Shown here: one piece after another, positions 1,585 to 15,515 of the stretch
Layout of the letters: each line of letters begins with the position of its first letter
Position numbering within the stretch: the stretch's first letter is position 1
IMG/VR virus record: IMGVR_UViG_3300020394_000445
Location: 1-20,115 of that record
Reading direction: 5' to 3' (one strand)
DNA from: a virus
Length of the DNA: 20,115 bases
The notes under the pieces: model-generated
Seen by the model: only the letters and a program-made list of their open reading frames with translations
The model's database searches: none
Told to the model about the DNA's origin: nothing
Program-made: the position numbers and the translations under genes

Positions 1585-1613
1585 ATTATACAGGCATTTG
1601 AATATTTTGTCAA
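1585..1613 (-). promoter_or_regulatory. Consensus sigma70 promoter (TTGACA-17-TATAAT)
   Basis: The minus strand has TTGACA at 1613-1608, a 17-base spacer, and TATAAT at 1590-1585. Both hexamers match the bacterial housekeeping consensus perfectly. The predicted transcript start is about 1578, a short distance before the conserved gene that starts at 1549. The -35 begins only 3 bases after the stop codon of the small upstream gene, so the promoter fills nearly the whole gap. It should drive the unit ending in phoH and the secreted protein. Confidence 0.92.
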
Positions 1614-1616
1614 CCC

Positions 1617-1775
1617 TTATTTTGCATATTTTTTAGATAGTGCTCTCAGAATAAATTCTCTTTTCTTCTTTATCTTATTCGCTCTCTGGGTCTGACCTTT
1701 CTTCTCCAGTTTCTGTGCATAGATTTCTAATTCATCAGAGTCTTTTCTTAATCGTTCAACTTGAGCAGATACCAT
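1617..1775 (-). CDS. Small basic helical protein (52 aa)
   Basis: An ATG at 1775 opens a 52-residue frame ending in TAA at 1617. The protein begins MVSAQVERLRKDSDELEIYA and is almost entirely charged helix: heptad-like leucines and isoleucines, then a lysine/arginine-rich stretch (KIKKKRE), then RALSKKYAK at the end. AAGGA lies 8-9 bases before the ATG. There is no close competing frame. It lies between a strong terminator (1791-1820) and the next promoter (1613), so its own transcription depends on readthrough or on a promoter I cannot see. A small coiled-coil or nucleic-acid-binding role would fit the composition, but no family is recognised. Confidence 0.7.
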   Translation of the reverse strand: MVSAQVERLRKDSDELEIYAQKLEKKGQTQRANKIKKKREFILRALSKKYAK

Positions 1776-1790
1776 TTAGTGTTCCTTAAT

Positions 1791-1820
1791 AAAAAAGAGT
1801 GTGCACGAAAGTACACACTC
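1791..1820 (-). terminator. Rho-independent terminator after the RNase H/DUF6433 pair
   Basis: The minus strand folds GAGTGTGTAC / GTGCACACTC around a TTTC loop. This is a 10-pair stem with a single G-U wobble, followed at once by six T residues. It begins 33 bases after the stop of the DUF6433-like gene. It is the clearest intrinsic terminator in the window and marks the end of the transcript that starts near 3137. Confidence 0.92.
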
Positions 1821-1852
1821 AGGTTAGTGTTAATGTTTCTGGGTTTAAAGTT

Positions 1853-2266
1853 CTAGTCTTGTAAAAGACTTGGAAATGCTTTCTCGACAATTCCTCTAGT
1901 TATCCCTTTTGGTTTATTTTTATTTATCATATCTATAACCACTAGAGCATCTTTTGGATGGATTCCTTCCAATAACTGTAAAAACATACGCTCTTTTTTA
2001 AACTTTGGTTGATCTTTGTGCAATCCCTCAACAAAGTATTGGAACTTTGTATTCTGTCTTTTAAGATCTGTGGGGTGGTTATGCTCTTCACATGGTGTGT
2101 AGGGTGGTTCTCCTGTTGGGATTACCCACTGTACCGTAGAGTCCATGGAACCTCTGATAACATCTTTCAGTGCCCATGACTCATTCTCTTTTAAAATCTT
2201 TCCTACTTGGTAAGCATTAGGTGCCTTAGACACTTCCTCTAAGACTTCAAAAATATATTTCTTCAT
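1853..2266 (-). CDS. DUF6433-like conserved phage protein
   Basis: This 137-residue soluble protein has a pattern I associate with the phage family DUF6433. An N-terminal helix (MKKYIFEVLEEVSKA) comes first, then W-x-x-P-x-G-x-P-P-Y (WVIPTGEPPYTP, about 47-58). A helix around YFVEGL follows, then ERMFLQLLEGIHPKDA (92-107) and a C-terminal KGITRGIVEKAFPSLL. Members commonly sit beside the T4 RNase H gene, as here, where the ATG overlaps the nuclease stop by 4 bases. The function is not known to me; a replication- or repair-linked role is suggested only by the neighbour. A strong terminator follows. The family name comes from memory and is unverified. Confidence 0.85.
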   Translation of the reverse strand: MKKYIFEVLEEVSKAPNAYQVGKILKENESWALKDVIRGSMDSTVQWVIPTGEPPYTPCEEHNHPTDLKRQNTKFQYFVEGLHKDQPKFKKERMFLQLLEGIHPKDALVVIDMINKNKPKGITRGIVEKAFPSLLQD

Positions 2267-3117
2267 ATTAGTTCCTCAACGGATTCAATCATTAATTTCA
2301 TACGGTTATTTATCAAGTACGGAAGTACTTCACCTCGCTTTGCCCATTTATCTTGACTGTTGAATTGCTCAAGTATTTCTGACTGCAACTCTTCTGGTGT
2401 GTATTCCAAATCAATCAACTTACGATTGCGTTGATAGTTTCTGTACCACTCCGAATGTTGGTAACCACTATCCGCATGGTTCAGTTGATTGATCATATCA
2501 TCTTTTTTCTTACGAGATAGAGGTCTCTGTCTCTCACCCTCCACGAACACATTATCGTGCGAGAGTACGTTTGGGACTCCATCTCCTGCGTCTCCAGTGA
2601 GTATCTTTTCTGTCAGACCTACCAGAGGGGTTTCTTCTCTATATTCTTTTTTTAGTAGAGGTGAGTACTGTCTCACGTTCTTATATCTCTGTAACTGCAA
2701 AAAGTCTTTGTCTGCAGATACAATCATTACATCTTCGTACTGACCAAACTCTTGAGTATTCTTACACAGAGTTCCAATGATGTCATCTGCTTCGCAACCT
2801 TCTACTTCGATTACTTTGTAGGGGAAGTGCTCTTTGAGTTCATCACGAATTTTATTGATAATACGAAATGCCTCGACCCAGTCTAAACCAGACTTGTCAC
2901 GTGCTTTCTTCCGATTTGCTTTATACTGAGGATAGTAATTCTTTCTCCAATTGTTCTTGGAGTCACAAGCAATTACTAACTCACCGAAGTTTTCTTTATA
3001 TGCATTGCGGTATAATCTCAAAGAATTGATGATCATATGTCGAATCATATTCTCATCGTTCTCTTTGTTTATCGCAACAGTTGAGGCAGAGAGTCCACCA
3101 TAATCTACAATAATCAT
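2263..3117 (-). CDS. rnh: T4 RNase H-like 5'-3' exonuclease (FEN/PIN family)
   Basis: This 284-residue flap-type 5' nuclease probably removes RNA primers and flaps from lagging-strand fragments during phage replication. The expected acidic metal ligands are all present: D5 in IIVDYGG, D52 in CDSKNNWRK, E109-D111-D112 in EGCEADD, D136 and D138 in SADKD, and D176 and D179 in TGDAGDG. The arginine/lysine-rich arch is RKNYYPQYKANRKKA at 58-72. Residues after about 185 look diverged or shortened where the helix-hairpin-helix region would lie; the C-terminal part is tyrosine- and charge-rich. The ATG is preceded by AGGTGA. A consensus promoter drives it, and it overlaps the DUF6433-like gene by 4 bases. 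Confidence 0.95.
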   Translation of the reverse strand: MIIVDYGGLSASTVAINKENDENMIRHMIINSLRLYRNAYKENFGELVIACDSKNNWRKNYYPQYKANRKKARDKSGLDWVEAFRIINKIRDELKEHFPYKVIEVEGCEADDIIGTLCKNTQEFGQYEDVMIVSADKDFLQLQRYKNVRQYSPLLKKEYREETPLVGLTEKILTGDAGDGVPNVLSHDNVFVEGERQRPLSRKKKDDMINQLNHADSGYQHSEWYRNYQRNRKLIDLEYTPEELQSEILEQFNSQDKWAKRGEVLPYLINNRMKLMIESVEELI

Positions 3118-3143
3118 AAATCACCTTTTAATTGTGTAAACCA

Positions 3144-3172
3144 ATTATACCACAATGCACTAGGTTTGTCAA
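3144..3172 (-). promoter_or_regulatory. Consensus sigma70 promoter for the RNase H unit
   Basis: The minus strand has TTGACA at 3172-3167, exactly 17 bases, then TATAAT at 3149-3144. The predicted transcript start is near 3137, about 20 bases before the ATG at 3117. The TGA stop codon of the upstream nuclease gene (3171-3169) is part of the TTGACA, so coding sequence and promoter are merged. A short AGGTT/AACCT inverted repeat flanks the GACA of the -35, possibly by chance. Confidence 0.93.
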
Positions 3173-3618
3173 CCTGCCGCTTCTTGAACATCCTTCGCAC
3201 TTACGACACCTTCGTTCATAAGTTTGTTTCGATTGGACATATGCCCACGTTCAACATCTGCTTTATTCTGTCCAAAGTATTTTACTGCATGTCCTTCTTC
3301 TATCAGGATCTCAGTAAGCATCTTCTCGCCTATCATGAAGTCTCCAAGGATACGACCAAACTTACCCTTCATGTCTTCACCATCTTTGGCGGCAAACGTC
3401 TTGAGTATTGTATCTTTTTCTATTAGTTCTTTGACTCTATCCTTTGCCGCTAGACCAAAGATCTTCTCTACCTTATCTCGTGTTCTAGACTCTGGTGTAT
3501 CGATACCCATGATACGTACACGCTCGTTCTTTAACCACACACCAAAACCAAGATCGATGTCAACATCAACCGTGTCGCCATCGACTACCTTCACAAGTTT
3601 TGCTTTGTATTCATACAT
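3169..3618 (-). CDS. Staphylococcal-nuclease-like (thermonuclease) protein
   Basis: This 149-residue protein matches the SNase fold over its full length. The metal and catalytic positions line up: DGDT at 13-16 (D15 for metal), R35 and D40-T41-P42-E43 in RIMGIDTPES, and R89 in KGKFGRILGDF. R35, D40 and E43 share their numbers with the S. aureus enzyme. No signal peptide is seen, so it would act in the cytoplasm, for example on host DNA or RNA for nucleotide recycling. That fits the ribonucleotide reductase at the head of the same transcript. The start overlaps the GIY-YIG-like gene by 8 bases and is preceded by AGGGA. Its stop codon lies inside the next promoter's -35 box. Substrate preference is not predictable. 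Confidence 0.95.
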   Translation of the reverse strand: MYEYKAKLVKVVDGDTVDVDIDLGFGVWLKNERVRIMGIDTPESRTRDKVEKIFGLAAKDRVKELIEKDTILKTFAAKDGEDMKGKFGRILGDFMIGEKMLTEILIEEGHAVKYFGQNKADVERGHMSNRNKLMNEGVVSAKDVQEAAG

Positions 3619-4021
3619 TTGATATTCCCTTTAAATGTTTACTATGAATCTTCCCACCTATAAACTCATTGTAATAATCTTCTCGGAATAATACGTCTCT
3701 ATCAAATTGTTCTTTCATTTCGAAATATGTCATTTCGCCTTTTGATTTACATAGTCTTAAAATTTCTCTTTTGAAATCATCGGCACGTTCCTCTACTAAT
3801 AACTTCACTTCCTCACTCGACCCAAAGTAGGTTCTCCAATCAGACTCTGTTCTCGTCCTGACCCTTCTCTTTCTCGTTTTTGTTTTGGGGAGTATCTTTG
3901 GTTTCCAGAAGTTCTTTTTACCGATATATTTCTTACCAGTATTTATATCTGTAATCATGTAAACGAACCCCTGAAAATCTTCAGGGGTCTCATTAAATTC
4001 TTTTTCTTTGTAATACCACAT
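3611..4021 (-). CDS. GIY-YIG-like putative endonuclease
   Basis: This 136-residue protein carries a GIY-YIG-type core: GFVYMIT at 18-24 and KYIGKK at 31-36, then a basic segment (45-58) and ESDWRTYFGSS at 59-69. It goes on to FKREILRLC at 83-91, an E in YFEMKEQF (101) as the candidate catalytic acid, and YYNEFIGGK at 116-124. Similar stand-alone proteins occur in T4-like phages, where GIY-YIG enzymes include homing endonucleases and DNA-processing nucleases. Here it is embedded in an operon and lacks an obvious separate DNA-binding domain, so mobility is not implied. The zinc-ribbon gene ends 4 bases before its ATG, and it overlaps the SNase gene. The class is likely; the activity is inferred. 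Confidence 0.82.
   Translation of the reverse strand: MWYYKEKEFNETPEDFQGFVYMITDINTGKKYIGKKNFWKPKILPKTKTRKRRVRTRTESDWRTYFGSSEEVKLLVEERADDFKREILRLCKSKGEMTYFEMKEQFDRDVLFREDYYNEFIGGKIHSKHLKGISNV
3967..3988 (-). other. Perfect 9-bp hairpin inside the start of the GIY-YIG-like gene
   Basis: ACCCCTGAA and its exact complement TTCAGGGGT are separated by four bases. The hairpin covers codons 12-18 of the GIY-YIG-like gene and is G+C-rich against an AT-rich background. No T run follows, so it is not a terminator. It could slow early translation or protect mRNA, or be a coding coincidence. Confidence 0.6.
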
Positions 4022-4025
4022 ACAC

Positions 4026-4169
4026 TTATGTATCTGGTTCAGTAATGTCCTCTACCTCTGCATGTCTATATCCACACATTGGACAATACTTGGGTTTTTT
4101 ACCATCTTCTACTAATACTATTGTAACTGACTCACAATCTTCACATTCAATTCTGAATTCTTTTTCCAC
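4026..4169 (-). CDS. Tiny zinc-ribbon protein (47 aa), GTG start
   Basis: A GTG at 4169 opens 47 codons ending in TAA at 4026. The protein reads MEKEFRIECEDCESVTIVLV, continues EDGKKPKYCPMCGYR, and ends in an acidic tail (HAEVEDITEPDT). Two CxxC knuckles, C9/C12 and C29/C32, are separated by a short beta segment and form a treble-clef or rubredoxin-like zinc ribbon. The frame is closed upstream by a stop, so GTG is the only reasonable start. It overlaps the DUF1289 gene end by 23 bases and ends 4 bases before the GIY-YIG-like ATG, as expected for a translated member of this operon. Possible roles are protein or nucleic-acid contact; nothing more specific can be said. Confidence 0.78.
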   Translation of the reverse strand: MEKEFRIECEDCESVTIVLVEDGKKPKYCPMCGYRHAEVEDITEPDT

Positions 4170-4356
4170 TGCTTCTTTTGCCTTTTCTTATTCCATAACC
4201 AAGACGTTTCATTATTTTCATTCTCTGATAATAGTGGTACGATCCCCATTCCGATATTTCCTGTTTGGTTCTGCCACAACCAACGCAAACGTCATTGCGA
4301 TCTAACCTGCAGATAGATCGGCATGGGGTAATGTACAGATCAGAAGTCGATTTCAC
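4147..4356 (-). CDS. DUF1289-type four-cysteine protein, GTG start
   Basis: This 69-residue protein has cysteines at 12, 16, 24 and 27 (C-x3-C-x7-C-x2-C). They sit in the DUF1289 pattern PCRSICRLDRNDVCVGCGRT, with the expected E-x-x-x-W (EISEW) after it, then a basic tail. DUF1289 proteins are small and probably bind a metal; their function is not established. The frame is open to a TTG at 4386, but GTG at 4356 has AGGTGG 5 bases before it. That start makes the N-terminus similar in length to bacterial members. It overlaps the end of the ribonucleotide reductase gene by 17 bases, and its ribosome site lies in the reductase's last codons, so translation is probably coupled. Confidence 0.85.
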   Translation of the reverse strand: MKSTSDLYITPCRSICRLDRNDVCVGCGRTKQEISEWGSYHYYQRMKIMKRLGYGIRKGKRSSGKRIQN

Positions 4357-6556
4357 ACGCACCACCTGCACAAGCAGATGCGGCAAGAGTATCTACATCT
4401 GTAAATACTTTTTCTGTGAGATCAGTTTTCCATTCCACTGGTTTCAGATTGCTTTGTATCTTTTCCCACTTATGGAGTAGGTAAGCATCTTTCAGACAAT
4501 ACTCAGTCTTCTTCATATCGCCATCAAGATAGTTCTGTGCAAATCTCTCGAACCTACGAACCCAGTCTTTCTTTGCAGAGTTTTCTGAAGACTCTACCGA
4601 AAGATCTTCGCCCATACCCATTGCGGTAGAACAGGCAGTCCATAGATTGTCGTAGACTTTCAACGCATCAACAACCATACCAGATGCAAAGATTGCACCT
4701 TGGTCATACTTCGCAACCATTTGCTCTGCGTTTATGACCTGTGTGTTAGGTGCTTGGTTATAATCCTTGTCACCTGTTGGAGATAGGAATGAAATGCCTG
4801 AAAAAGAATAACGATTTTTATATACGTATTTCTCTACCTCATCCCAATCGTCTACTATGATTGTATTTGATACGTTATGTCGAATACCTTCGTCTGCACA
4901 TAGTTCTTCGTTAGTTCCTTCGACAACCCAGTTCTTCTGTGCTTGCTTTACCATTTCCAAATGCTTTACGCCATGGAGATCGTCTTTGAACATAGAACCT
5001 TTCTTAGGGACAATAGGGAAGGAGACAACTACGTCTGTCCCACCTGCAGACCATACTGATTCTTCAACCATGAATGGATTTGATTTTTGAATTGCTTGTG
5101 TAATTTCAGACTCTTTATTCATCTGTATATTTCGAATGTACATTGGTGAGTGCTCTGCGTGGATGCCAGAGGCAGTCTGAAGCAATACTGAAGCATTGCC
5201 AGAAGGTTTCACACAAGTAGTACGAGAAGCAGGGTTAATGCCGATAATAGAAGCAACTTCTTTATTAACTTTCTTAACAAGTCTAGCACCTTTCTTTAGA
5301 ATTTTTGAATCAAATAAAATATCTGGATTGTTCATCCATCCTGTTATCGAAACACCAAGGAGTGCTTCACGATCAAAAATCTTTTTAGATGTATCTGATA
5401 TAAACTTGAAGTCTGTGTATCCTGCTTGTAAAGTTCCTAGGATAGCGGCGGCACGACATGCCTTGAGAAAGTCTTCCTCGCTTGTGCACATACCACCATT
5501 GATTTCTGTCAAGTTACAACCTTGCCAACCTGACTTACCATTGTACTGTGGAAACATCCCAATCTCCACACATGGGTTTGTTGTGTGTTCTTTTGATGAG
5601 GTGAAGTAGAAACCAGGTTCGCCAAATGATTTTACTGATTCCATAATCTTGGCAAATGTTTCTGGAGTTGCTTCGTCTCGAACAATCACTGCAGAGTTAT
5701 TAGATCTACCACGTTGTGGATTATCCATAAACCAGTTACCAGTTTTTGCAGTCATCATTTCTTCATCTTCTGGAGAGAACAAACAGATTGTTGCAGATCT
5801 TCGAACACCACCAGACAACACTGCATCTGCAGTATGCATACAGATGTCGTAACAAGTTATCGGACGCATGGCAATAGGTTCTTTTGAATCCATAACCAGT
5901 GCTTGTAGCATATGTTCGATCTTGTCCAGTGTTCTACGTAATCCTTCAGGACCTGGTGCTTTGAATCCACCAGAGATCTTTGCCCCCTTTGGGCGAATTA
6001 GAGATAGATCAAAGAATACTCTACGACCTTCATAGTCTGGGTGCTTACCACCCCCTACAAAATAAGAAGACATCAACACGTCCACTGCTGATGCCCAACC
6101 TTCTATCGAGTCTTCTACGATGTAACCTTTTGCTTGCTTCGTTCTCTGTTGGATCTTTGGTAGTTTTGCTACGTGATGGTTCTGTACTGAGAACCCTGCA
6201 CCTGCGCCACATAGTAGAATATAGAAATACTCACCAAAGAACTCTGGACGATCAGCATATGAAGACGTACAGTTATACATCCTCATCTGGTGTTTCATCA
6301 ATTGTTCTCCACCGAATTGCAATGCACGTTGAGCACCTAATACTCGTTGCTCCTTATAAGCAACTCTTGCTTCTTCAATGTATGTTTGTAATTTATTTAA
6401 TTTTTTAGAATAGTTATTCTCGTGCATAGAGATCACACGGTCAACCGCCTCATCCCAAGTTTCGTAATTACTCTCCTCATCTTTGAATCTGGAGTAACTG
6501 TCGTAGAACTTTGTTTCGGACAAAAACGCACGTGTGTCTGCAAATCGATTTTGCAT
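4340..6556 (-). CDS. nrdJ: Class II (adenosylcobalamin-dependent) ribonucleotide reductase
   Basis: At 738 residues this is the length of the monomeric Lactobacillus-type ribonucleoside-triphosphate reductase (739). It makes deoxynucleotides using coenzyme B12, with no metal-radical subunit and no oxygen need. The active-site set is complete: C96 (in MYNCTSS) and C347 (GCNLTEIN) as the redox pair, N327, C329 and E331 (NPCVEI) with C329 as the thiyl radical cysteine, and the C-terminal shuttle pair C729/C734 in CAGGACEIDF. Other family blocks are LCGAGAGFSVQ (115-125), GGVRRSA (249-255) and the phosphate-binding PSGNASVLLQTASGIH (451-466). The C329-C347 spacing is 7 longer than in the Lactobacillus enzyme. 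AAGGAAG and a perfect promoter precede the ATG. The DUF1289 gene overlaps its 3' end. Confidence 0.96.
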   Translation of the reverse strand: MQNRFADTRAFLSETKFYDSYSRFKDEESNYETWDEAVDRVISMHENNYSKKLNKLQTYIEEARVAYKEQRVLGAQRALQFGGEQLMKHQMRMYNCTSSYADRPEFFGEYFYILLCGAGAGFSVQNHHVAKLPKIQQRTKQAKGYIVEDSIEGWASAVDVLMSSYFVGGGKHPDYEGRRVFFDLSLIRPKGAKISGGFKAPGPEGLRRTLDKIEHMLQALVMDSKEPIAMRPITCYDICMHTADAVLSGGVRRSATICLFSPEDEEMMTAKTGNWFMDNPQRGRSNNSAVIVRDEATPETFAKIMESVKSFGEPGFYFTSSKEHTTNPCVEIGMFPQYNGKSGWQGCNLTEINGGMCTSEEDFLKACRAAAILGTLQAGYTDFKFISDTSKKIFDREALLGVSITGWMNNPDILFDSKILKKGARLVKKVNKEVASIIGINPASRTTCVKPSGNASVLLQTASGIHAEHSPMYIRNIQMNKESEITQAIQKSNPFMVEESVWSAGGTDVVVSFPIVPKKGSMFKDDLHGVKHLEMVKQAQKNWVVEGTNEELCADEGIRHNVSNTIIVDDWDEVEKYVYKNRYSFSGISFLSPTGDKDYNQAPNTQVINAEQMVAKYDQGAIFASGMVVDALKVYDNLWTACSTAMGMGEDLSVESSENSAKKDWVRRFERFAQNYLDGDMKKTEYCLKDAYLLHKWEKIQSNLKPVEWKTDLTEKVFTDVDTLAASACAGGACEIDF

Positions 6557-6597
6557 ACTTCGCTTCCTTATTTTATGTTTTGTTTTTAGATGGTAGT

Positions 6598-6626
6598 ATT
6601 ATATAGTATTTTTTAGTTTTTGTCAA
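6598..6626 (-). promoter_or_regulatory. Consensus sigma70 promoter for the ribonucleotide reductase unit
   Basis: The minus strand has TTGACA at 6626-6621, a 17-base A-rich spacer, and TATAAT at 6603-6598. The predicted transcript start is near 6591, about 35 bases before the ATG at 6556. It occupies the 89-base gap after the holin gene and should serve the five overlapping genes down to the SNase-like gene. No intrinsic terminator is visible for the structural transcript arriving from the right. Confidence 0.94.
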
Positions 6627-7119: not shown

Positions 7120-9735
7120 TTATCCTAGTAGTTTACCTGGTGGGGTAAACGTGCCAGTGTATCTGCACTTATGTAGCGTTATTCTGAAGTCCTCTAAGAA
7201 TCCCTTCATTATATAAGTTCCAGATGCTGAACCATGTCTTCTACAACCAATACCAATTGATCCTGGTGACGCTTGTGGATGATTTGTGTTTCCTGTGTTT
7301 ATTGATGCCGCACTATTACCATCCAACCACATATTCATATTGCTTCCATTTTTAGTTAAAGCAATGTGATGCCACGTATCTGCAGTTAAAGTTCCACCAC
7401 CCATAACCTGAGTTGAACTTCGATAGTAAGTCATTGTCCCTTGAGTTACTTGCCACTGTGTAAAACTTGCATCTGCAACAAGACCACTACCACAGTGGAA
7501 AACAGTACTGTAACCCCCATATCCAGGATCTCCTGCAGGAAGGTAGATCCACGTTTCTATTGTGAAATCTATGTATTGACCAAAATAGATCATTCCTTCG
7601 TTTGCTGTACCATTCACAGGATCATTCTCTATTACAAGTCCCCCCTGACTTCCGTTAATATAAACTGAGGCAGGTGAGGAAGCAAATTTCTTTGTACCTG
7701 TATTACCAAACACGCCATCACCAGGACCATATTGTTTCGATAATAACTGTTGGGTAAACTGTGAATGATCACCCATTGTAATGCCATGACCAGTCAATAG
7801 GAGTTTTTGATTTGAGTTTCCTGAAGCAATTGGTGTTGTGGGTGGAGCAAAAGGAACCGTTGAATACTTTTGTCCAGTGGTAACACAAAAATCAGTCATG
7901 TTTCCTGAAAGAGTTTCCGAACCACTATTAGAATATGATCCAATATTAAATGTGCCATTGAGGTTGGCATTATAATTTGCATCAGTGATTTGACCTTTCT
8001 GCTCACCATTGATATAAAAAGTTACAGTCGTGCCACTTCGATAAAGACAGACGTGTATCCACTCTTCTATTGGTGGATAATAACCTGATGCTAATGTTCC
8101 AACAGTTGCGGAGTTTGAATAGAGTCTAAATTCTGCAGATGCTGATTGCCAATAAAGATCAAATAAATCAGTACTGCTTCCATGGTTAGCAGTAAATATT
8201 GTATGGTTGCTTGCCATATCAAGAAAATATACCCAACATTCAATTGTAACATCACCTGTCCCAACATCTGCCATAGTGACTTGTGCAAATCCATCACTCC
8301 TATCAGGAAAATGAAGGGCAGTTCCATGCACATCCTTATCATATACTTGTCTATTGTACGGAGAAAATCCTACAATTTCAGGTGGATTGTCTGCATCGTT
8401 TTGTACAACATTATTACCTTCTAGTTCTTCATGATTAGGTAAACTAAGCATATGAAACTTTCTACCCGACACATTAGGTAATGGTTCTGTTGGTGGAGTA
8501 AATGTAGTGGTATAAATTGCAGTACCTTTTACTATTCTAAAATCTGAAACGTGTACGTTTTGCAAAGGTGCAGAACCATTTGATGCTCTTGCGCCAAGTC
8601 CAGTGATTGCACTTGATTGTCCACAATTAAGACCTGCAACACTCATAGATACATTTGCAACACCATTCCTATACAGGGTTAGGGTATTTCCATTTCTAAC
8701 AACCGCGTAGTGAATCCACTCATAAAGAGGAACACCTGCAGTTTCTTCCATCGTATTACTAGTGCCATTTGTGTATACAATCCATCGTCCTTCATAACCA
8801 CCATGCAATTGTATTGTGATATTGGGGTATGTTCCATAACCGTTATCATAAAGAGTTTCGTATGCACTAGGGGTTGCCAACCAATAATTCCACCACTCTA
8901 TAGTAAAATCTCCATTAGAAAAATCAAAATCACTTGATGCGGATATTGTAAAATGTCTACTCTGATCGAAGAAAGTAGAGTAGTAACCACCAGGTGATGT
9001 TGCGGTTCCAGTGAATTGCGAACCACTACGATAAGGACTGTGTGTTGTATTCTCAACAGTTCCTTTATTGGTGACTGTCAGACTGTTTGTCCCCTTATCA
9101 GTTAGTGTTTGGTTTGATCCGCTTCCAAAAGCATTTAAGAGAAATACTGTTTGATCAGAACTATCTGCAGTTGCCGCACTAAACGTTAAACTCAATGCAG
9201 ATTGTCCAGTTCCAAAATTGATACCATCAGATGCTTTGAATGTAAGTGTGGAAGTTGTTGTGGTTGCTGAATCTTCTAACTTTGGTGTGATTGTGAATAC
9301 AGAAGAGTCTTGACTTAATGTTCCAAGTCCACTAAAACTACCATCCGATTCAACACTAAAAGAGATAAGACCAGAAGGTGTATCTGAGTCAGATGCGGTG
9401 AGAGTAATAGTAGTAGGAGTACCATCGTTTGCTAGAGCAATCGAACCACTTGGTGTTATAGTAAGACTAGGGGTTTGGTTGATAACTGCTATATTGTACC
9501 AACCAAGTCCGTTTGAAATGTAAAGACGTTTATCAGAGTCTACTAATGCTTGTTGACCTGATACCAGATTAGATGTTGGTAGAGAATCTAAAGTCTGAAA
9601 TACTTTCAATCCAATACTTGCAACTTGTGCGGAGTCTACACCTAGAGATGTCCCAACAATAGCAAGTGGATTGTTGGTAGTATTGTTTGTCTCTGTCTTA
9701 GACAACATTTCTGCTATATCTCTAGATCTTCCCAT
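7120..9735 (-). CDS. Fibre/adhesin D: shared N-terminal module, Ig-like domain, three LamG/ConA-like domains
   Basis: This is the largest (871 residues) of four related fibre genes. Residues 1-85 are the shared module: SRDIAEMLSKTE, then VFQTLDSLPTSNLVSGQQAL and LYISNGLGWYN. Residues 88-190 form an Ig/cadherin-like domain (SSVFTITPK, TFKASDGINF). Three concanavalin/LamG-like domains follow at about 195-418, 425-636 and 645-871. Each has a D-x-TIE-x-W strand, a W-x-H strand with an N-G turn, and a closing D-F-x-x-T/V ... F-x-PP-x-x-P-like strand. Such jelly rolls commonly bind glycans, so a receptor-binding role is likely. The protein stops right after the third domain. AGGAAG precedes the ATG. 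It follows the 284-residue gene by 1 base and precedes the holin. Confidence 0.9.
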   Translation of the reverse strand: MGRSRDIAEMLSKTETNNTTNNPLAIVGTSLGVDSAQVASIGLKVFQTLDSLPTSNLVSGQQALVDSDKRLYISNGLGWYNIAVINQTPSLTITPSGSIALANDGTPTTITLTASDSDTPSGLISFSVESDGSFSGLGTLSQDSSVFTITPKLEDSATTTTSTLTFKASDGINFGTGQSALSLTFSAATADSSDQTVFLLNAFGSGSNQTLTDKGTNSLTVTNKGTVENTTHSPYRSGSQFTGTATSPGGYYSTFFDQSRHFTISASSDFDFSNGDFTIEWWNYWLATPSAYETLYDNGYGTYPNITIQLHGGYEGRWIVYTNGTSNTMEETAGVPLYEWIHYAVVRNGNTLTLYRNGVANVSMSVAGLNCGQSSAITGLGARASNGSAPLQNVHVSDFRIVKGTAIYTTTFTPPTEPLPNVSGRKFHMLSLPNHEELEGNNVVQNDADNPPEIVGFSPYNRQVYDKDVHGTALHFPDRSDGFAQVTMADVGTGDVTIECWVYFLDMASNHTIFTANHGSSTDLFDLYWQSASAEFRLYSNSATVGTLASGYYPPIEEWIHVCLYRSGTTVTFYINGEQKGQITDANYNANLNGTFNIGSYSNSGSETLSGNMTDFCVTTGQKYSTVPFAPPTTPIASGNSNQKLLLTGHGITMGDHSQFTQQLLSKQYGPGDGVFGNTGTKKFASSPASVYINGSQGGLVIENDPVNGTANEGMIYFGQYIDFTIETWIYLPAGDPGYGGYSTVFHCGSGLVADASFTQWQVTQGTMTYYRSSTQVMGGGTLTADTWHHIALTKNGSNMNMWLDGNSAASINTGNTNHPQASPGSIGIGCRRHGSASGTYIMKGFLEDFRITLHKCRYTGTFTPPGKLLG

Positions 9736-10611: not shown

Positions 10612-12561
10612 TTATATAGTATCAAGATCTTCTGTTGTACTCAAGGTTGCAATTGGTTCTAGTGCATAACTACCACTATTATAATTAGTAGTGTGCCACG
10701 AACTTGTGATATCAGATACAGAATAAGAAACACTTGTTTGTGTACTTGGAGAATATGTGGCCTCACTATTTGTTTGATCAGAAATTACAATATTGGTGTA
10801 AGTTCCTGCAGTAGGATTCGCAGGAAGTTTCATAGGCGCAAATTGGTAATCAGCACCATAAGCGTAGTAAAAGTGTGCGAGTAAATTTCCGTCTTTAGTC
10901 AATGACAGATTATTAACACCATCACCAATATTGTAATTGGTCACATTATTATCAATCCCCCACTGATCCACCAATGTTCCATCAGTAGAATATTTACGTA
11001 GAATAAATTTTGCAGGTGTTGCATCCGCATCTTCACCCATTATCCATATATTATCAGCACCATCTATTGCAAGACCATGGTGCCAACTTGTATCGTTATG
11101 CTTTTTCGCCCATACAATACTACCATCAGTTCCGCTAAGTTTCATCAAAAAACCAGTGTATGGAGTACTACTAGTATCGGTATAACCTGTGAGATATACA
11201 TCCTTATTCGAATCTAACTTTATATTGTACGCAACATCATAAGGTCCTATGCTCGAATTATTGGTCTCTCCATATTGTTTCAACCACTGCATACTCATAG
11301 AACTGTTGAATTTTGCTATAACCATGTGTGGATAACTACCCACGTACTGTACAGTACAGGTATAAACATTATCATCTTCATCTATGAACATATTATAATG
11401 ACTTGCCTGAGAAGTAGCGGCAGATCCAAGTCTCCACATATTTATCAAAGCACCAGTACTTCCATTTATTTTAGCAATAACTACTTTTCTTTCTGTGTTA
11501 CCAGTTCTGTTAGTTCCCAATGTCCAAACATTACCCTGACTGTCTATTTGACAAGCAAACTGAGGATCAAAACTATCATAATTGTTAGAAACAGTTTGTG
11601 GTTTTATTATCTTTACCCACGAAACAACACCTGCACTTGTCCATTTGATTATAAATCCAACTTGAGGAGTTACACCACCACCATTGTTCTCTCCCCAACC
11701 GTAGTCTTGTCCTATTGTATAGATAGAATTTCCATCTGCAGATACATTAACACTGTATATTCTAGCATAGTATGCATTAGCATTTAGTTGTTTTGCCCAC
11801 TGTACGTTACCATCAGCATTTAACTTAACTAACATCCCTATATCATTTGCTGCTTCGTCACCTGTTACATAAATGCTACCGTCTGAAGCACCTATTATTC
11901 CTCTAGGTAATTCATATGCAGAAGAAGACCGAGTTGTTGCTAATCCAGAAAAATTTATTCTATTCCACCAACCTGAAGAAGTAGGATTATATCCACCACT
12001 GCCACCTGCAGGATTATAAGTTATCGTAACTGCTTTTGATACAAAGTTAACGCCATCAGACCATTTAAACGTGTAGATGAAATCTCCATTGGAATCTGTA
12101 AGATCTCCTGCCAAAACTGCCGCACCAATACTATCTGCACTCTTAGGTGTAAAAGTCCAGACAGATGAATCATTAGATATAGTCACCATGTGTTGAGCAG
12201 AATCTGTAGCGGCACTTTGGTTTAATAAATTCAAGTTGTCTGAGTCTGCCGCACGTGCAGTTATGGTTAAAGGAGTTACTGAGTCGGCAATTGAATATGC
12301 CGCTTCTGGTTCTCCACCAGAATCCCATCTAGGGTTTCTGTTGACCAAAGCAACGTTATACCAACCTACACCATTTGAGATGTATAATCTATTTGTAGCA
12401 TTGACAAATGCCTGATCACCACTTGTTAAACCATTTATTGGTAAAGAGTCAAGAGTGCTGTAAACAGTCATACTTGCAGTGCCAGATAACAACGATGCGT
12501 TACTGGGGTTCCCTGCTTCTGTCTTACCCATTATTCGGGCAATGTCTCTTGTTCTACTCAT
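10612..12561 (-). CDS. Fibre/adhesin C: shared N-terminal module, Ig-like domain, beta-propeller
   Basis: This 649-residue protein has the shared module at residues 1-80 (SRTRDIARIMGKTE, YSTLDSLPINGLTSGDQAF, LYISNGVGWYN). An Ig/cadherin-like domain follows at about 85-185 (SSVWTFTPKS, FIYTFKWSDGVNF). Residues 216-575 carry about seven blades of the SBBP/PQQ type. Each has a D-G-x-I/V-Y-x-x-G strand, then an I-x-K-x-x-x-x-G strand, ending in a W-x-K strand (for example GSIYVTG / LVKLNADGNVQWAK). The last 70 residues are serine/threonine-rich. The propeller could serve as a receptor-binding or structural head. AGGTG lies 4 bases before the ATG, and a TATAAATA element lies just upstream. It is separated from fibre B by 24 bases. 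Confidence 0.9.
   Translation of the reverse strand: MSRTRDIARIMGKTEAGNPSNASLLSGTASMTVYSTLDSLPINGLTSGDQAFVNATNRLYISNGVGWYNVALVNRNPRWDSGGEPEAAYSIADSVTPLTITARAADSDNLNLLNQSAATDSAQHMVTISNDSSVWTFTPKSADSIGAAVLAGDLTDSNGDFIYTFKWSDGVNFVSKAVTITYNPAGGSGGYNPTSSGWWNRINFSGLATTRSSSAYELPRGIIGASDGSIYVTGDEAANDIGMLVKLNADGNVQWAKQLNANAYYARIYSVNVSADGNSIYTIGQDYGWGENNGGGVTPQVGFIIKWTSAGVVSWVKIIKPQTVSNNYDSFDPQFACQIDSQGNVWTLGTNRTGNTERKVVIAKINGSTGALINMWRLGSAATSQASHYNMFIDEDDNVYTCTVQYVGSYPHMVIAKFNSSMSMQWLKQYGETNNSSIGPYDVAYNIKLDSNKDVYLTGYTDTSSTPYTGFLMKLSGTDGSIVWAKKHNDTSWHHGLAIDGADNIWIMGEDADATPAKFILRKYSTDGTLVDQWGIDNNVTNYNIGDGVNNLSLTKDGNLLAHFYYAYGADYQFAPMKLPANPTAGTYTNIVISDQTNSEATYSPSTQTSVSYSVSDITSSWHTTNYNSGSYALEPIATLSTTEDLDTI
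12045..12112 (-). repeat. Dispersed DNA repeat, copy in fibre C
   Basis: This 68-base stretch encodes the end of the Ig-like domain (DSNGDFIYTFKWSDGVNFV region). By hand alignment it matches the fibre B copy at 58 of 68 positions and the fibre A copy at about 53 of 68. It is part of a longer diverged match over the N-terminal half of the three genes. Confidence 0.75.
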
Positions 12562-12585: not shown

Positions 12586-13932
12586 CTAGTATGCTATGAC
12601 TAATGAACTCGATGAATATTGGGTGCCACTGTCGTGCCTAAACCTATGATATGGTTGTTGGAGTGGATTAGCACCACTAATCTGATTAGGTTGATAGTTT
12701 CTATAAGATACTTGTTTATAATATATGCTTCTAGAAACATCACCCCACCATTGGGAAACTGCAGGACTTGAGGCAGTGAAGGTTCTCGTACCATACCTCG
12801 TAGTATGAATTTCTGCTATTCCATTCTTAAATTGATATCCTGACGGAGGCGCGGCAGATGCAACTTGATAGTAAGTGTTTAGAGCATAATTGCCAGGATA
12901 ATTGATTTGAGCATGATTAAATAATGGGGTATTGCCACCACCCAAAATCATCATTGTAAACACCACATAACTAGTTCCACCACTCGCTTCATTATTCTGA
13001 ATTGTCAGACCATTTGCTTTCATATCTGCTGATAATGCGCTATTGATATACACGTCAGTTCTATAATCATATTGACCTGACGCATACCCCCACTGATATT
13101 CATAGGTGGGTGTAGCAGGATTTCCGTTATAAGAAAAATCGTCTGGTACGGTAACCTGTGCCGATCCATTTAGTGCAGTCCAACCAAGACCACCTACAAC
13201 TAATATTACTTGATCACCTACTTGGCAGTTGTAAGGAAAATACATAGTTGTGGAAGAGGTAGAATTACCAAAAGTACTGCCAAAAACTCCTCTTTGGAAA
13301 TTTCTCCATGCAATTTGATTATTTGGACCTGAAGCAGAAGCAGTATTGTAAATTATGTTTGCCGCTTTAGCAACAAAGTTTACACCATCCGACCATTTGA
13401 ATGTGTATGTAAAATCTCCATTGGAATCTGTGAGATTTCCTGCCGCGACTGCACTTGCGATCTCTGCTTTGGTCTTTGGGGTAAACGTAAATACGGATGA
13501 GTCATTAGTTACTGTTGCCATGAATTGTGCAGAGTCAGATCCGAAACTCTGGTTGATAAATAATTCGGTTCCATCAGAGTCACCAGGATCTGCTTTGATG
13601 ATCAGAGGTGTTGCTGAATCAACTATAGTATATTCATCAAGTGGTACGGAATCCCAAAAGGGTGCATTATTCACTGTTAATGCATTATAGTAACCAGATC
13701 CGTTAGAAATATAAAGTCTTTTACTTTCATTAACAAATGCTTGCTGTCCTTCTAGCAAATTACTAGTAGGAATCGAGTCTAAAGTATCAAAAAATTGAAC
13801 TCCATTTATACTCATAATAGTAGCACTATCAACACCTGTAAGTTCACCAGTGTGCAAAAGACGAAGTTCATTCGGGTTCGCACTATCTGTTCTACCTAAG
13901 AAGGTTGCTATGTTTCTTGCTTTACTGACCAT
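12586..13932 (-). CDS. Fibre/adhesin B: shared N-terminal module, Ig-like domain, unrecognised C-terminal domain
   Basis: This 448-residue protein has the shared module at residues 1-95 (KARNIATFLGRTDSANP, FFDTLDSIPTSNLLEGQQAF, LYISNGSGYYN), with an insert GVDSATIMSI also seen in fibre D. The Ig-like domain (100-197) is closest to fibres A and C (SSVFTFTPKT, FTYTFKWSDGVNF). The C-terminal 250 residues (about 200-448) form an aromatic- and asparagine-rich beta domain (VGDQVILVVGGLGW, then PDDFSYNGNP, ending SSSSLVIAY) that I cannot place in a family. A jelly-roll-like receptor-binding domain is a guess. The start overlaps the fibre A stop by 1 base (TAATG), so the two are coupled. Confidence 0.88.
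   Translation of the reverse strand: MVSKARNIATFLGRTDSANPNELRLLHTGELTGVDSATIMSINGVQFFDTLDSIPTSNLLEGQQAFVNESKRLYISNGSGYYNALTVNNAPFWDSVPLDEYTIVDSATPLIIKADPGDSDGTELFINQSFGSDSAQFMATVTNDSSVFTFTPKTKAEIASAVAAGNLTDSNGDFTYTFKWSDGVNFVAKAANIIYNTASASGPNNQIAWRNFQRGVFGSTFGNSTSSTTMYFPYNCQVGDQVILVVGGLGWTALNGSAQVTVPDDFSYNGNPATPTYEYQWGYASGQYDYRTDVYINSALSADMKANGLTIQNNEASGGTSYVVFTMMILGGGNTPLFNHAQINYPGNYALNTYYQVASAAPPSGYQFKNGIAEIHTTRYGTRTFTASSPAVSQWWGDVSRSIYYKQVSYRNYQPNQISGANPLQQPYHRFRHDSGTQYSSSSLVIAY
13377..13444 (-). repeat. Dispersed DNA repeat, copy in fibre B
   Basis: This is the fibre B copy of the 68-base element encoding the FTYTFKWSDGVNFV part of the Ig-like domain. It matches the fibre C copy at 58 of 68 positions by hand alignment, with no gap needed. 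Confidence 0.75.
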
Positions 13933-15515
13933 TACGATGAATTCCCTGCGCCATTTGCACCATGATTAGTCGCACTGATATTTCCAAAGTCAGTAGCATT
14001 ACCAGTAGTTTGAATGGTTATCTTCTGAATATCATCTATAGTGGTATAAGGTGAACTGGTTGCTTTACCCATACCACCTGCGAACTGTGCAGTAGTTCCG
14101 TCAGTGCAACCCCCACTAGTCAGATAACACCAGTAAACCAGATCACCAAAATCATAGGCATTACTTGTGGTTTGTGTTGTTACATAATGAATCACATTAG
14201 CATTTGCGGCATAGGCAGTTTGTTGAACTTGATAATAATTGGTTCTTACATAACCACCTGCAAATATACTTCTAGTCTCATCTGAAGTACCACCAACGTT
14301 ATCCCATGCACTACCACCCATTCCGTTTAAGTTACCGAATTGATAAGCAGAATTTGCAGTTGCATAAGAAAACCATTTGATAGAAGCAACAGAAACAGCA
14401 GGTCCACTTTGGTAATTAGATCTATTAACACCACCTGCAAACAATCCTCTGGTGGCATCACCTGCCGCACCAATTGTAAATAGTTTTAGACCCATGTCTC
14501 CTGTTTCAGTTGCATTACCTGGTGTGTCAATAGTTATTTTTCTCATCTTTTGCATTGAAGTGGAATAGTTATTTGGATAAGCATTGCCAGTAGGAAGGTT
14601 GCCTCCAGTCTGTACCCCAACTGTACCATTGGAACTAGCGGCACTACCACCATAGTAATCATCTATATCATCCCCAAAGTCAACAGCATTTCCTGTAGTG
14701 GCAACTGTAATGTAATCCATTGTTCTTCTAGGAAATACATGAGAGGCATCTGTATTACGAGAACCAAAAACTATTCTGTAGGCATTACTCATACCACCAC
14801 TCATGTCTTTACTAACCCCAGTGAGGTTACCAAATGATTGTGCCGTACCCCCTGTTGACATTGACCAGTATTCTATTTGTTGTCTTGGTGTTCCACCTGA
14901 ACCACCTGCACCTGCTAGAATACCTCTGTCTCCACCCCAGTCAATTAATTTTGCACTTAATGCAGGATTGTAGGTTATGGTTGCTTGTCTGGTGATAAAG
15001 TTATTTCCGTCCGACCACTTAAACGTGTAGATAAAATCACCATTGGAATCTTCTAAGTCACCTGCGAGAACAGATGCTCCTATAGAATTAGCACTCTTTG
15101 GAGTAAATGTAAATACTGAAGAATCTATGGTTATGTCAACCATGTACTGGGCAGAGTCAGATGCGAAACTTTGATTTAATAAATTTGAATTATCTGAGTC
15201 TGTTGCTTTTGCTATAATGACGAGAGGTGTTGCTGAGTCAACAATAGTATATTCAGTAAGTGGAGAAGAATCCCAATTAGGATCTGCGCTTATTAATGCG
15301 GTATTGTACCAACCAGATCCATTAGAAACATAAAGTCTATTGGTTGAAGTGATGAATGCTTGTTGACCAGATGACAAACCAGTTATAGGTAGAGAGTCCA
15401 AAGAAGTAAAAACTGACGCTCTAGTGCTTTGAGTAGAAGCATCTATAGCATTGTTATCTGGGTTCGCTTGCTCTGTGTTTGACAGTATTGAAGCAATGTC
15501 TCGAATACGACTCAT
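13932..15515 (-). CDS. Fibre/adhesin A: shared N-terminal module, Ig-like domain, kelch-like repeats
   Basis: This 527-residue protein has the shared module at residues 1-82 (SRIRDIASILSNTEQANPD, FTSLDSLPITGLSSGQQAF, LYVSNGSGWYN). An Ig/cadherin-like domain lies at 88-185. About six kelch-like repeats fill residues 197-520. Each has an R-G-x-F-A-G-G strand, a variable loop, then I-x-Y-x-T-x-x-T-x-G-N-A-x-D-F-G-D/N (for example ITIQTTGNATDFGN). Such repeats build a beta-propeller. The protein ends just after the last repeat (HGANGAGNSS). It would be displayed on the virion as a fibre tip, by analogy with marine phage fibres of this build. It begins 3 bases after the lysine-rich gene and is coupled to fibre B by a 1-base overlap. 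Confidence 0.9.
   Translation of the reverse strand: MSRIRDIASILSNTEQANPDNNAIDASTQSTRASVFTSLDSLPITGLSSGQQAFITSTNRLYVSNGSGWYNTALISADPNWDSSPLTEYTIVDSATPLVIIAKATDSDNSNLLNQSFASDSAQYMVDITIDSSVFTFTPKSANSIGASVLAGDLEDSNGDFIYTFKWSDGNNFITRQATITYNPALSAKLIDWGGDRGILAGAGGSGGTPRQQIEYWSMSTGGTAQSFGNLTGVSKDMSGGMSNAYRIVFGSRNTDASHVFPRRTMDYITVATTGNAVDFGDDIDDYYGGSAASSNGTVGVQTGGNLPTGNAYPNNYSTSMQKMRKITIDTPGNATETGDMGLKLFTIGAAGDATRGLFAGGVNRSNYQSGPAVSVASIKWFSYATANSAYQFGNLNGMGGSAWDNVGGTSDETRSIFAGGYVRTNYYQVQQTAYAANANVIHYVTTQTTSNAYDFGDLVYWCYLTSGGCTDGTTAQFAGGMGKATSSPYTTIDDIQKITIQTTGNATDFGNISATNHGANGAGNSS
14999..15066 (-). repeat. Dispersed DNA repeat, copy in fibre A
   Basis: This is the fibre A copy of the 68-base element in the Ig-like domain (FIYTFKWSDGNNF region). 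It matches the fibre C copy at about 53 of 68 positions by hand alignment, making it the most diverged of the three. Confidence 0.7.

Follow-up and report, generated by a model that had tools for sequence, protein, structure and literature searches.

Why would a phage gene array restart transcription at three textbook sigma70 promoters, and why do the counterparts of these promoters in related phages lie within inverted repeats? The window considered here is the whole 20,115-base virus record IMGVR_UViG_3300020394_000445, a fragment of a T4-like phage whose proteins, among them PhoH, a T4-like RNase H and a class II ribonucleotide reductase (RNR), are akin to those of T4-like or cyanophage-type myoviruses. 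It holds exactly three copies of TTGACA-17-TATAAT (a -35 and a -10 hexamer with a 17-base spacer), all on the minus strand: P1 (6626-6598) precedes the RNR gene, P2 (3172-3144) a T4 RNase H-like exonuclease/flap endonuclease gene (RNase H/FEN) and P3 (1613-1585) a gene of the protein family phrog_624. The promoters themselves are ordinary, and their early, host-driven reading is well supported. When the leaders are set side by side, inverted repeats are seen to overlap the promoters in relatives, an overlap that the first-pass annotation of this DNA had missed; many of the relatives' promoters sit inside such repeats, whose pairing is kept while the sequence changes. We consider it probable, if well short of assured, that at the level of the family these are early promoters combined with a hairpin gate that hides the Shine-Dalgarno sequence (SD) of read-through RNA.

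Spacers that pair with the leader

Two kinds of stem have statistical support. In one (type B), found at phrog_624 and at some other genes, the -35/-10 spacer pairs with the part of the leader that surrounds the SD; in the other (type A), found at RNR, the -35 lies at the centre of the stem. A third arrangement (type C), in which the region upstream of the -35 would pair with the leader, was tried and displayed no effect.

The evidence for type B comes from arm swaps, in which the real spacer-leader pairing is compared with that of arms exchanged between lineages, using representatives of less than 75% identity. At phrog_624 the pairing amounts to -11.5 kcal/mol against -6.7 kcal/mol for swapped arms (z=-11.2, and z=-9.7 in a second sampling); the promoters of other genes give z=-3.8, and all 143 distinct promoters taken together z=-10.0. 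Of these 143, 14 form stems at or below -15 kcal/mol, compared with an expectation of 0.9, and 24% of the spacers contain anti-SD tetramers as against 3% with SD-like ones. A recognised SD occurs in 19 strong stems, and in 16 of them all four of its bases are paired; a strand-neutral stem search returns z=9.6. The mismatches left in type B stems comprise 14 G.U and 3 A.C (169:174 in the swapped control), an excess of G.U that points to sense-strand RNA.

The RNR stem is supported by a different statistic. In an alignment of 43 leaders its covariation reaches 0.312, compared with 0.187+-0.020 after shuffling (0 of 500 as high), and peaks at slide 0, which is the proposed register. This stem may act on read-through RNA as a terminator or 3'-end element.

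T4, scanned as an outgroup, supplies a further instance. Its regB early promoter (L229:12735-12806, minus strand; T4 62796-62740) lies in a strong SD-hiding hairpin with a spacer-leader pairing of -22.5 kcal/mol and a fold z of -3.97. The hairpin over the SD is kept with altered arms across loci L232-L237, in Gaprivervirus, Mosigvirus and Gelderlandvirus, in the first of these in a register displaced so as to involve the -10 region. The spacer/leader stem predicted to hide the GGAG SD is thereby conserved, with changed arms, in four Tevenvirinae genera. As regB was first found by a scan of one genome, the later comparison of genera constitutes the more independent support. regB thus shares with phrog_624 the typical early promoter and the stem over the SD, and is a different gene; the part of a review that deals with it describes such a promoter and self-cleavage by RegB at its SD, and mentions no such hairpin. 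Elsewhere in T4, the region upstream of mrh.2 (L228:15226-15297, minus strand) has a hairpin with this geometry but a weaker fold (z=-2.29).

One further kind of spacer repeat was seen in passing: at loci L217/L218 (G003) several promoters at different places of one contig carry a nearly identical spacer, TTATCCATARAATGG, which is itself a short inverted repeat, CCAT/ATGG.

A proposed translational gate and its alternatives

What could be the role of a promoter folded into its own leader? We propose that each promoter would restart transcription inside a co-directional array of DNA and nucleotide-metabolism genes, and that some early promoters in this phage group would act as insulated starts. 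At related loci the upstream gene is co-directional in 263 of 266 assignable cases, often across a short gap, so that read-through RNA is to be expected. At phrog_624, where the spacer is complementary to the leader bearing the SD, RNA arriving from the upstream gene would contain both arms, fold into the hairpin and conceal the ribosome site; RNA initiated at the promoter would begin 3' of the 5' arm, leaving the leader free to be translated. The gene would then be silent whenever its own early promoter is not firing. The geometry is suited to this, since the spacer or the -10 supplies the 5' arm and the inferred start site falls downstream of it; prediction and covariation place the SD inside the stem of read-through RNA in phrog_624 relatives, at some other promoters and at T4 regB. 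That translation of read-through RNA is blocked, with the consequence for timing, we infer from features that are themselves observed: the promoters, their conservation, the covarying pairing, the RNA-strand bias and the place of the SD in the stem.

The same logic has been demonstrated experimentally with late promoters for T4 e and I-TevI (PMC3014915, PMC2988022). In the T4 late-promoter gates (e, soc, 49, I-TevI, segB; also mobE of Aeh1) the promoter likewise sits in a hairpin that sequesters the ribosome-binding site, and only RNA started there is translatable; these are, however, described in two reviews as late genes with mostly late promoters, whereas the marine phages have an early sigma70-type promoter with the -35/-10 spacer as 5' arm. 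Instead of the late TATAAATA promoter that characterizes gates of the gene e type, their hairpins contain a sigma70 -35 and -10, and we therefore class them as a variant of these gates and not as a member. Judged by the reviewed portion of the literature, early promoters inside SD-hiding hairpins at the family level appear to be a known T4 device in a new form. The broader proposal, that this is a recurrent T4-like device by which certain early genes, phrog_624 in the marine group and regB in T4, become 'early only', is one that we advance tentatively, with slightly more doubt than confidence.

The interest of such a gate lies in the fact that read-through of phage arrays never ceases, and promoter shut-off alone does not settle how early genes are switched off; a promoter whose spacer also kept read-through RNA silent would solve this compactly. 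If the proposal is correct, continuing read-through RNA would stay silent after the early promoters are shut off, mirroring the late-only gates of e, soc and I-TevI, with early promoter and translational gate sharing the same bases. It would also provide a sequence signature for early-only genes in uncultured marine T4-like phages.

Several observations weigh against the gate. The arm-swap test reduces the contribution of shared ancestry without fully removing it, as related sequences are not independent. RNAalifold on A1 found no consensus structure for phrog_624, because the stems differ in register; a single consensus RNA structure was thus rejected there, and arm-swap tests were used instead. 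Pairing at the RNase H promoter is at most marginal (z -2.1 and z -1.2), and neither the promoters of the complete phage C48C1 nor the T4 early promoters as a set display a general hairpin effect, which rules out the device as a universal property. Type A stems leave the SD uncovered, are often without a good U-tract, and retain so few G.U or A.C mismatches that RNA and DNA cannot be distinguished. The window's own three folds are weak (z -1.72 for P3, -1.04 for P2 and -0.09). The predicted read-through hairpin over P3 (1605-1553, minus strand) combines the pairs ATATTC/GAATAT, TGCC/GGCA and GTATAAT/ATTATAT, its 5' arm formed by the spacer and -10 and its 3' arm lying in the leader; its minimum free energy is -14.3, 12 of 200 shuffles fold as well, and the SD falls mostly in an internal loop. 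A short inverted repeat over the -35 of P2, AGGTT-GACA-AACCT (3175-3162, minus strand), is matched by 31 of 200 shuffles. Within the window, then, only the phrog_624 hairpin is weakly discernible, and it is the only one that might plausibly work.

Such insignificant folds, together with the lack of hairpins at C48C1 and at most T4 early promoters, are what one would expect if these were plain T4-type early promoters whose inverted repeats have no regulatory role in the window's phage. We hold this to be unlikely, while keeping it in serious consideration; the arm-swap tests across relatives and the RNR covariation exclude chance for the family. On another reading the hairpins serve above all to terminate transcription of the upstream unit, and happen to overlap the next promoter. 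A different gene, at locus L183, indeed has a textbook terminator, AAAAAGGGC-TTGACATCAG-GCCCTTTTT, with the -35 TTGACA in its loop (z=-5.4); several RNR stems end in TTTT, and T runs follow the stem in L064 and L177. A GC stem leading directly into a U-tract is, however, seen in L183 and some of the RNR stems and missing from others, many RNR stems being without a U-tract (L040 and L077, for example). In the strong spacer-leader stems it is the SD that forms the 3' arm in those 16 of 19 cases, and we hold a general terminator function to be improbable.

The repeats could, finally, be DNA operators, at which a dimeric repressor bound over the -35 or -10 would shut the promoter. They do overlap the -35 (RNR) or flank the -10 (phrog_624), where a repressor would act, and the operators of I-TevI overlap T4 promoters. 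Yet pairing is kept while the arm sequences vary freely, and, the RNR stem excepted, the 3' arm coincides with the SD and the 14:3 excess of G.U over A.C is not what a DNA site predicts. Because the arms vary and G.U exceeds A.C, we rank operators low for phrog_624, and consider them very unlikely as an account of the repeats.

Early promoters of the T4 type

A first-order Markov simulation (4 Mb, both strands) predicts 0.010 exact TTGACA-17-TATAAT matches per window by chance; the plus strand and the reversed pattern yield 0 matches, and the fibre and structural part of the window has no exact site. When up to two mismatches are allowed, 6 sites are found in all as against 5.35 expected; sites with one or two mismatches thus occur at chance frequency, and only the exact ones stand out. 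These near matches, in an AT-rich genome, are all that would favour a chance origin of the perfect promoters, which the figure of 0.010 and the retention of promoters at orthologous genes rule out for practical purposes. The first-pass annotation had reported three perfect promoters with 17-base spacers on this strand, far beyond chance, absent from the fibre and structural part and each just upstream of a unit. All of this is borne out: the exact matches were recovered at their coordinates, and the RNR, RNase H/FEN and phrog_624 starts adjoin them, and to speak of three units is fair.

Conservation follows the genes concerned. Upstream regions were scored at 202 related loci, a promoter being counted at 10 or more matches out of 12. 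Such a promoter precedes RNR in 71 of 72 distinct orthologous leaders, phrog_624 in 86 of 105 and RNase H in 55 of 95, and is nearly absent before neighbouring genes: staphylococcal nuclease (SNase) 0/37, PhoH 2/61, phrog_385 1/81 and holin-like 1/40. Over 2.53 Mb of related loci, 290 sites compare with 12 for the reversed pattern, and 277 of them have the start of an open reading frame (ORF) within 110 nt.

In the complete relative C48C1 (OQ984149), TTKACA-17-TATAAT occurs 15 times, always on the plus strand, and a control pattern 0 times. The 62 kb given over to structural genes contain none of these sites: all 15, at positions from 21 to 105 kb, belong to the 94-kb early/middle/replication region. 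Among the named genes at the sites or close by are those for gp55, SbcD, the clamp, DNA polymerase, a DNA methyltransferase, the helicase and phrog_624. Equal density across late genes, which would have spoken against the earlier suggestion of host-polymerase-driven early expression of nucleotide and DNA genes, is thus not what this genome displays, and with the conservation at orthologues the suggestion is strongly supported. The same sequence comparisons strongly support the identification of the three sites as T4-type early promoters read by the host sigma70 RNA polymerase.

The claim that these promoters are unusually ideal did not survive. A T4-type early promoter is defined by a GTTTAC/TTGAC-type -35 with TATAAT at a spacing of 16-18 (PMC1524935), as is found here; T4 itself uses TTTAC, and G for T at -33 has been reported in RB49, RB43 and Aeh1 (PMC1524935). 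Most relatives of the window have TTTACA, the T4 early form, where the window has the TTGACA that is perfect by the standard of E. coli, and T4 early promoters are already exceptionally strong composites and exceptionally good sigma70 promoters (PMC2988021). The 'perfect' G therefore marks one lineage's version of a promoter type already known, as in RB49, RB43 and Aeh1. With the early promoters of these phages and T4 the sites share the TTTAC/TTGAC -35, the 17-base spacer, TATAAT, sometimes a TG before the -10, an A-rich upstream region, a position before early or DNA-metabolism genes and multiplicity within the genome. The cyanomyoviruses S-PM2 and Syn9 likewise have sigma70-like motifs before early-gene homologues, and cyanomyoviruses are reported to be without Alt/ModA-type modification genes; they differ in that the literature, as far as covered, reports no hairpin for their early promoters.

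The three units of the window

The features that follow all lie on the minus strand. P1 (-35 TTGACA 6626-6621, -10 TATAAT 6603-6598) has a predicted start site at about 6591 and leads to the ATG at 6556 of a 738-residue class II (adenosylcobalamin-type) RNR (6556-4340; phrog_367 E=7.6e-96, and TIGR02505 E=2e-51, which is under the curated cut-off). RNR class differs between the phages, the window's group having class II (4340-6556) and C48C1 (L208) a class I NrdA/NrdB pair. The unit continues with a GIY-YIG protein of the SegE type (4021-3611; PF19835 E=3.9e-35) and ends with a staphylococcal-nuclease-like protein (3618-3169; PF00565 E=1.5e-13), whose stop codon is contained in the -35 of P2.

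P2 has an extended -10 (TGG) and a predicted start at about 3137. It is followed by RNase H/FEN, which begins at the ATG at 3117 (3117-2263; PF02739 E=2.7e-23, PF09293 E=7.8e-15), and by a DUF6433 protein (2266-1853; PF20025 E=1.5e-21). At the end of this unit, before the third, a 10-bp stem-loop followed by TTTTTT (1820-1797) resembles an intrinsic terminator and was the first listed in a scan for such elements. Between it and P3 lies a basic ORF of 52 codons (1775-1617) that is without an obvious promoter of its own and may depend on read-through.

P3, with a predicted start at about 1578, precedes phrog_624 (1549-968; E=1.2e-56), which has a borderline match to the pyrimidine-dimer DNA glycosylase family (PF03013 E=2.4e-4, at 21.8 bits just below the cut-off of 23); a PDB search with the protein gave no significant match. 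The mechanically assigned start, ATG 1570, which stands 14 bases away from the -10, is probably incorrect. The true start is probably TTG 1549-1547, which is favoured because it is served by the SD GAGGGGGA (1564-1557), because position 2 of the PHROG_624 profile aligns to the residue after it, and because the relatives' proteins begin with MNIF at the matching point. A small 'transcriptional regulator' (phrog_385, 981-745; E=3.1e-12) and a PhoH-like ATPase (748-68; PF02562 E=9e-43) complete the unit.

An Rfam search over the window returned no family, and late TATAAATA-type sites are also listed in it. Outside the three units, four successive ORFs at 7120-9735, 10612-12561, 12586-13932 and 13932-15515 encode large proteins with a common N-terminus (M..RDIA..L..TE..NP..., ...LDSLP..GL..GQQAF...RLYISNG.GWYN) and a divergent remainder, much as fibre proteins that share one attachment module would have.

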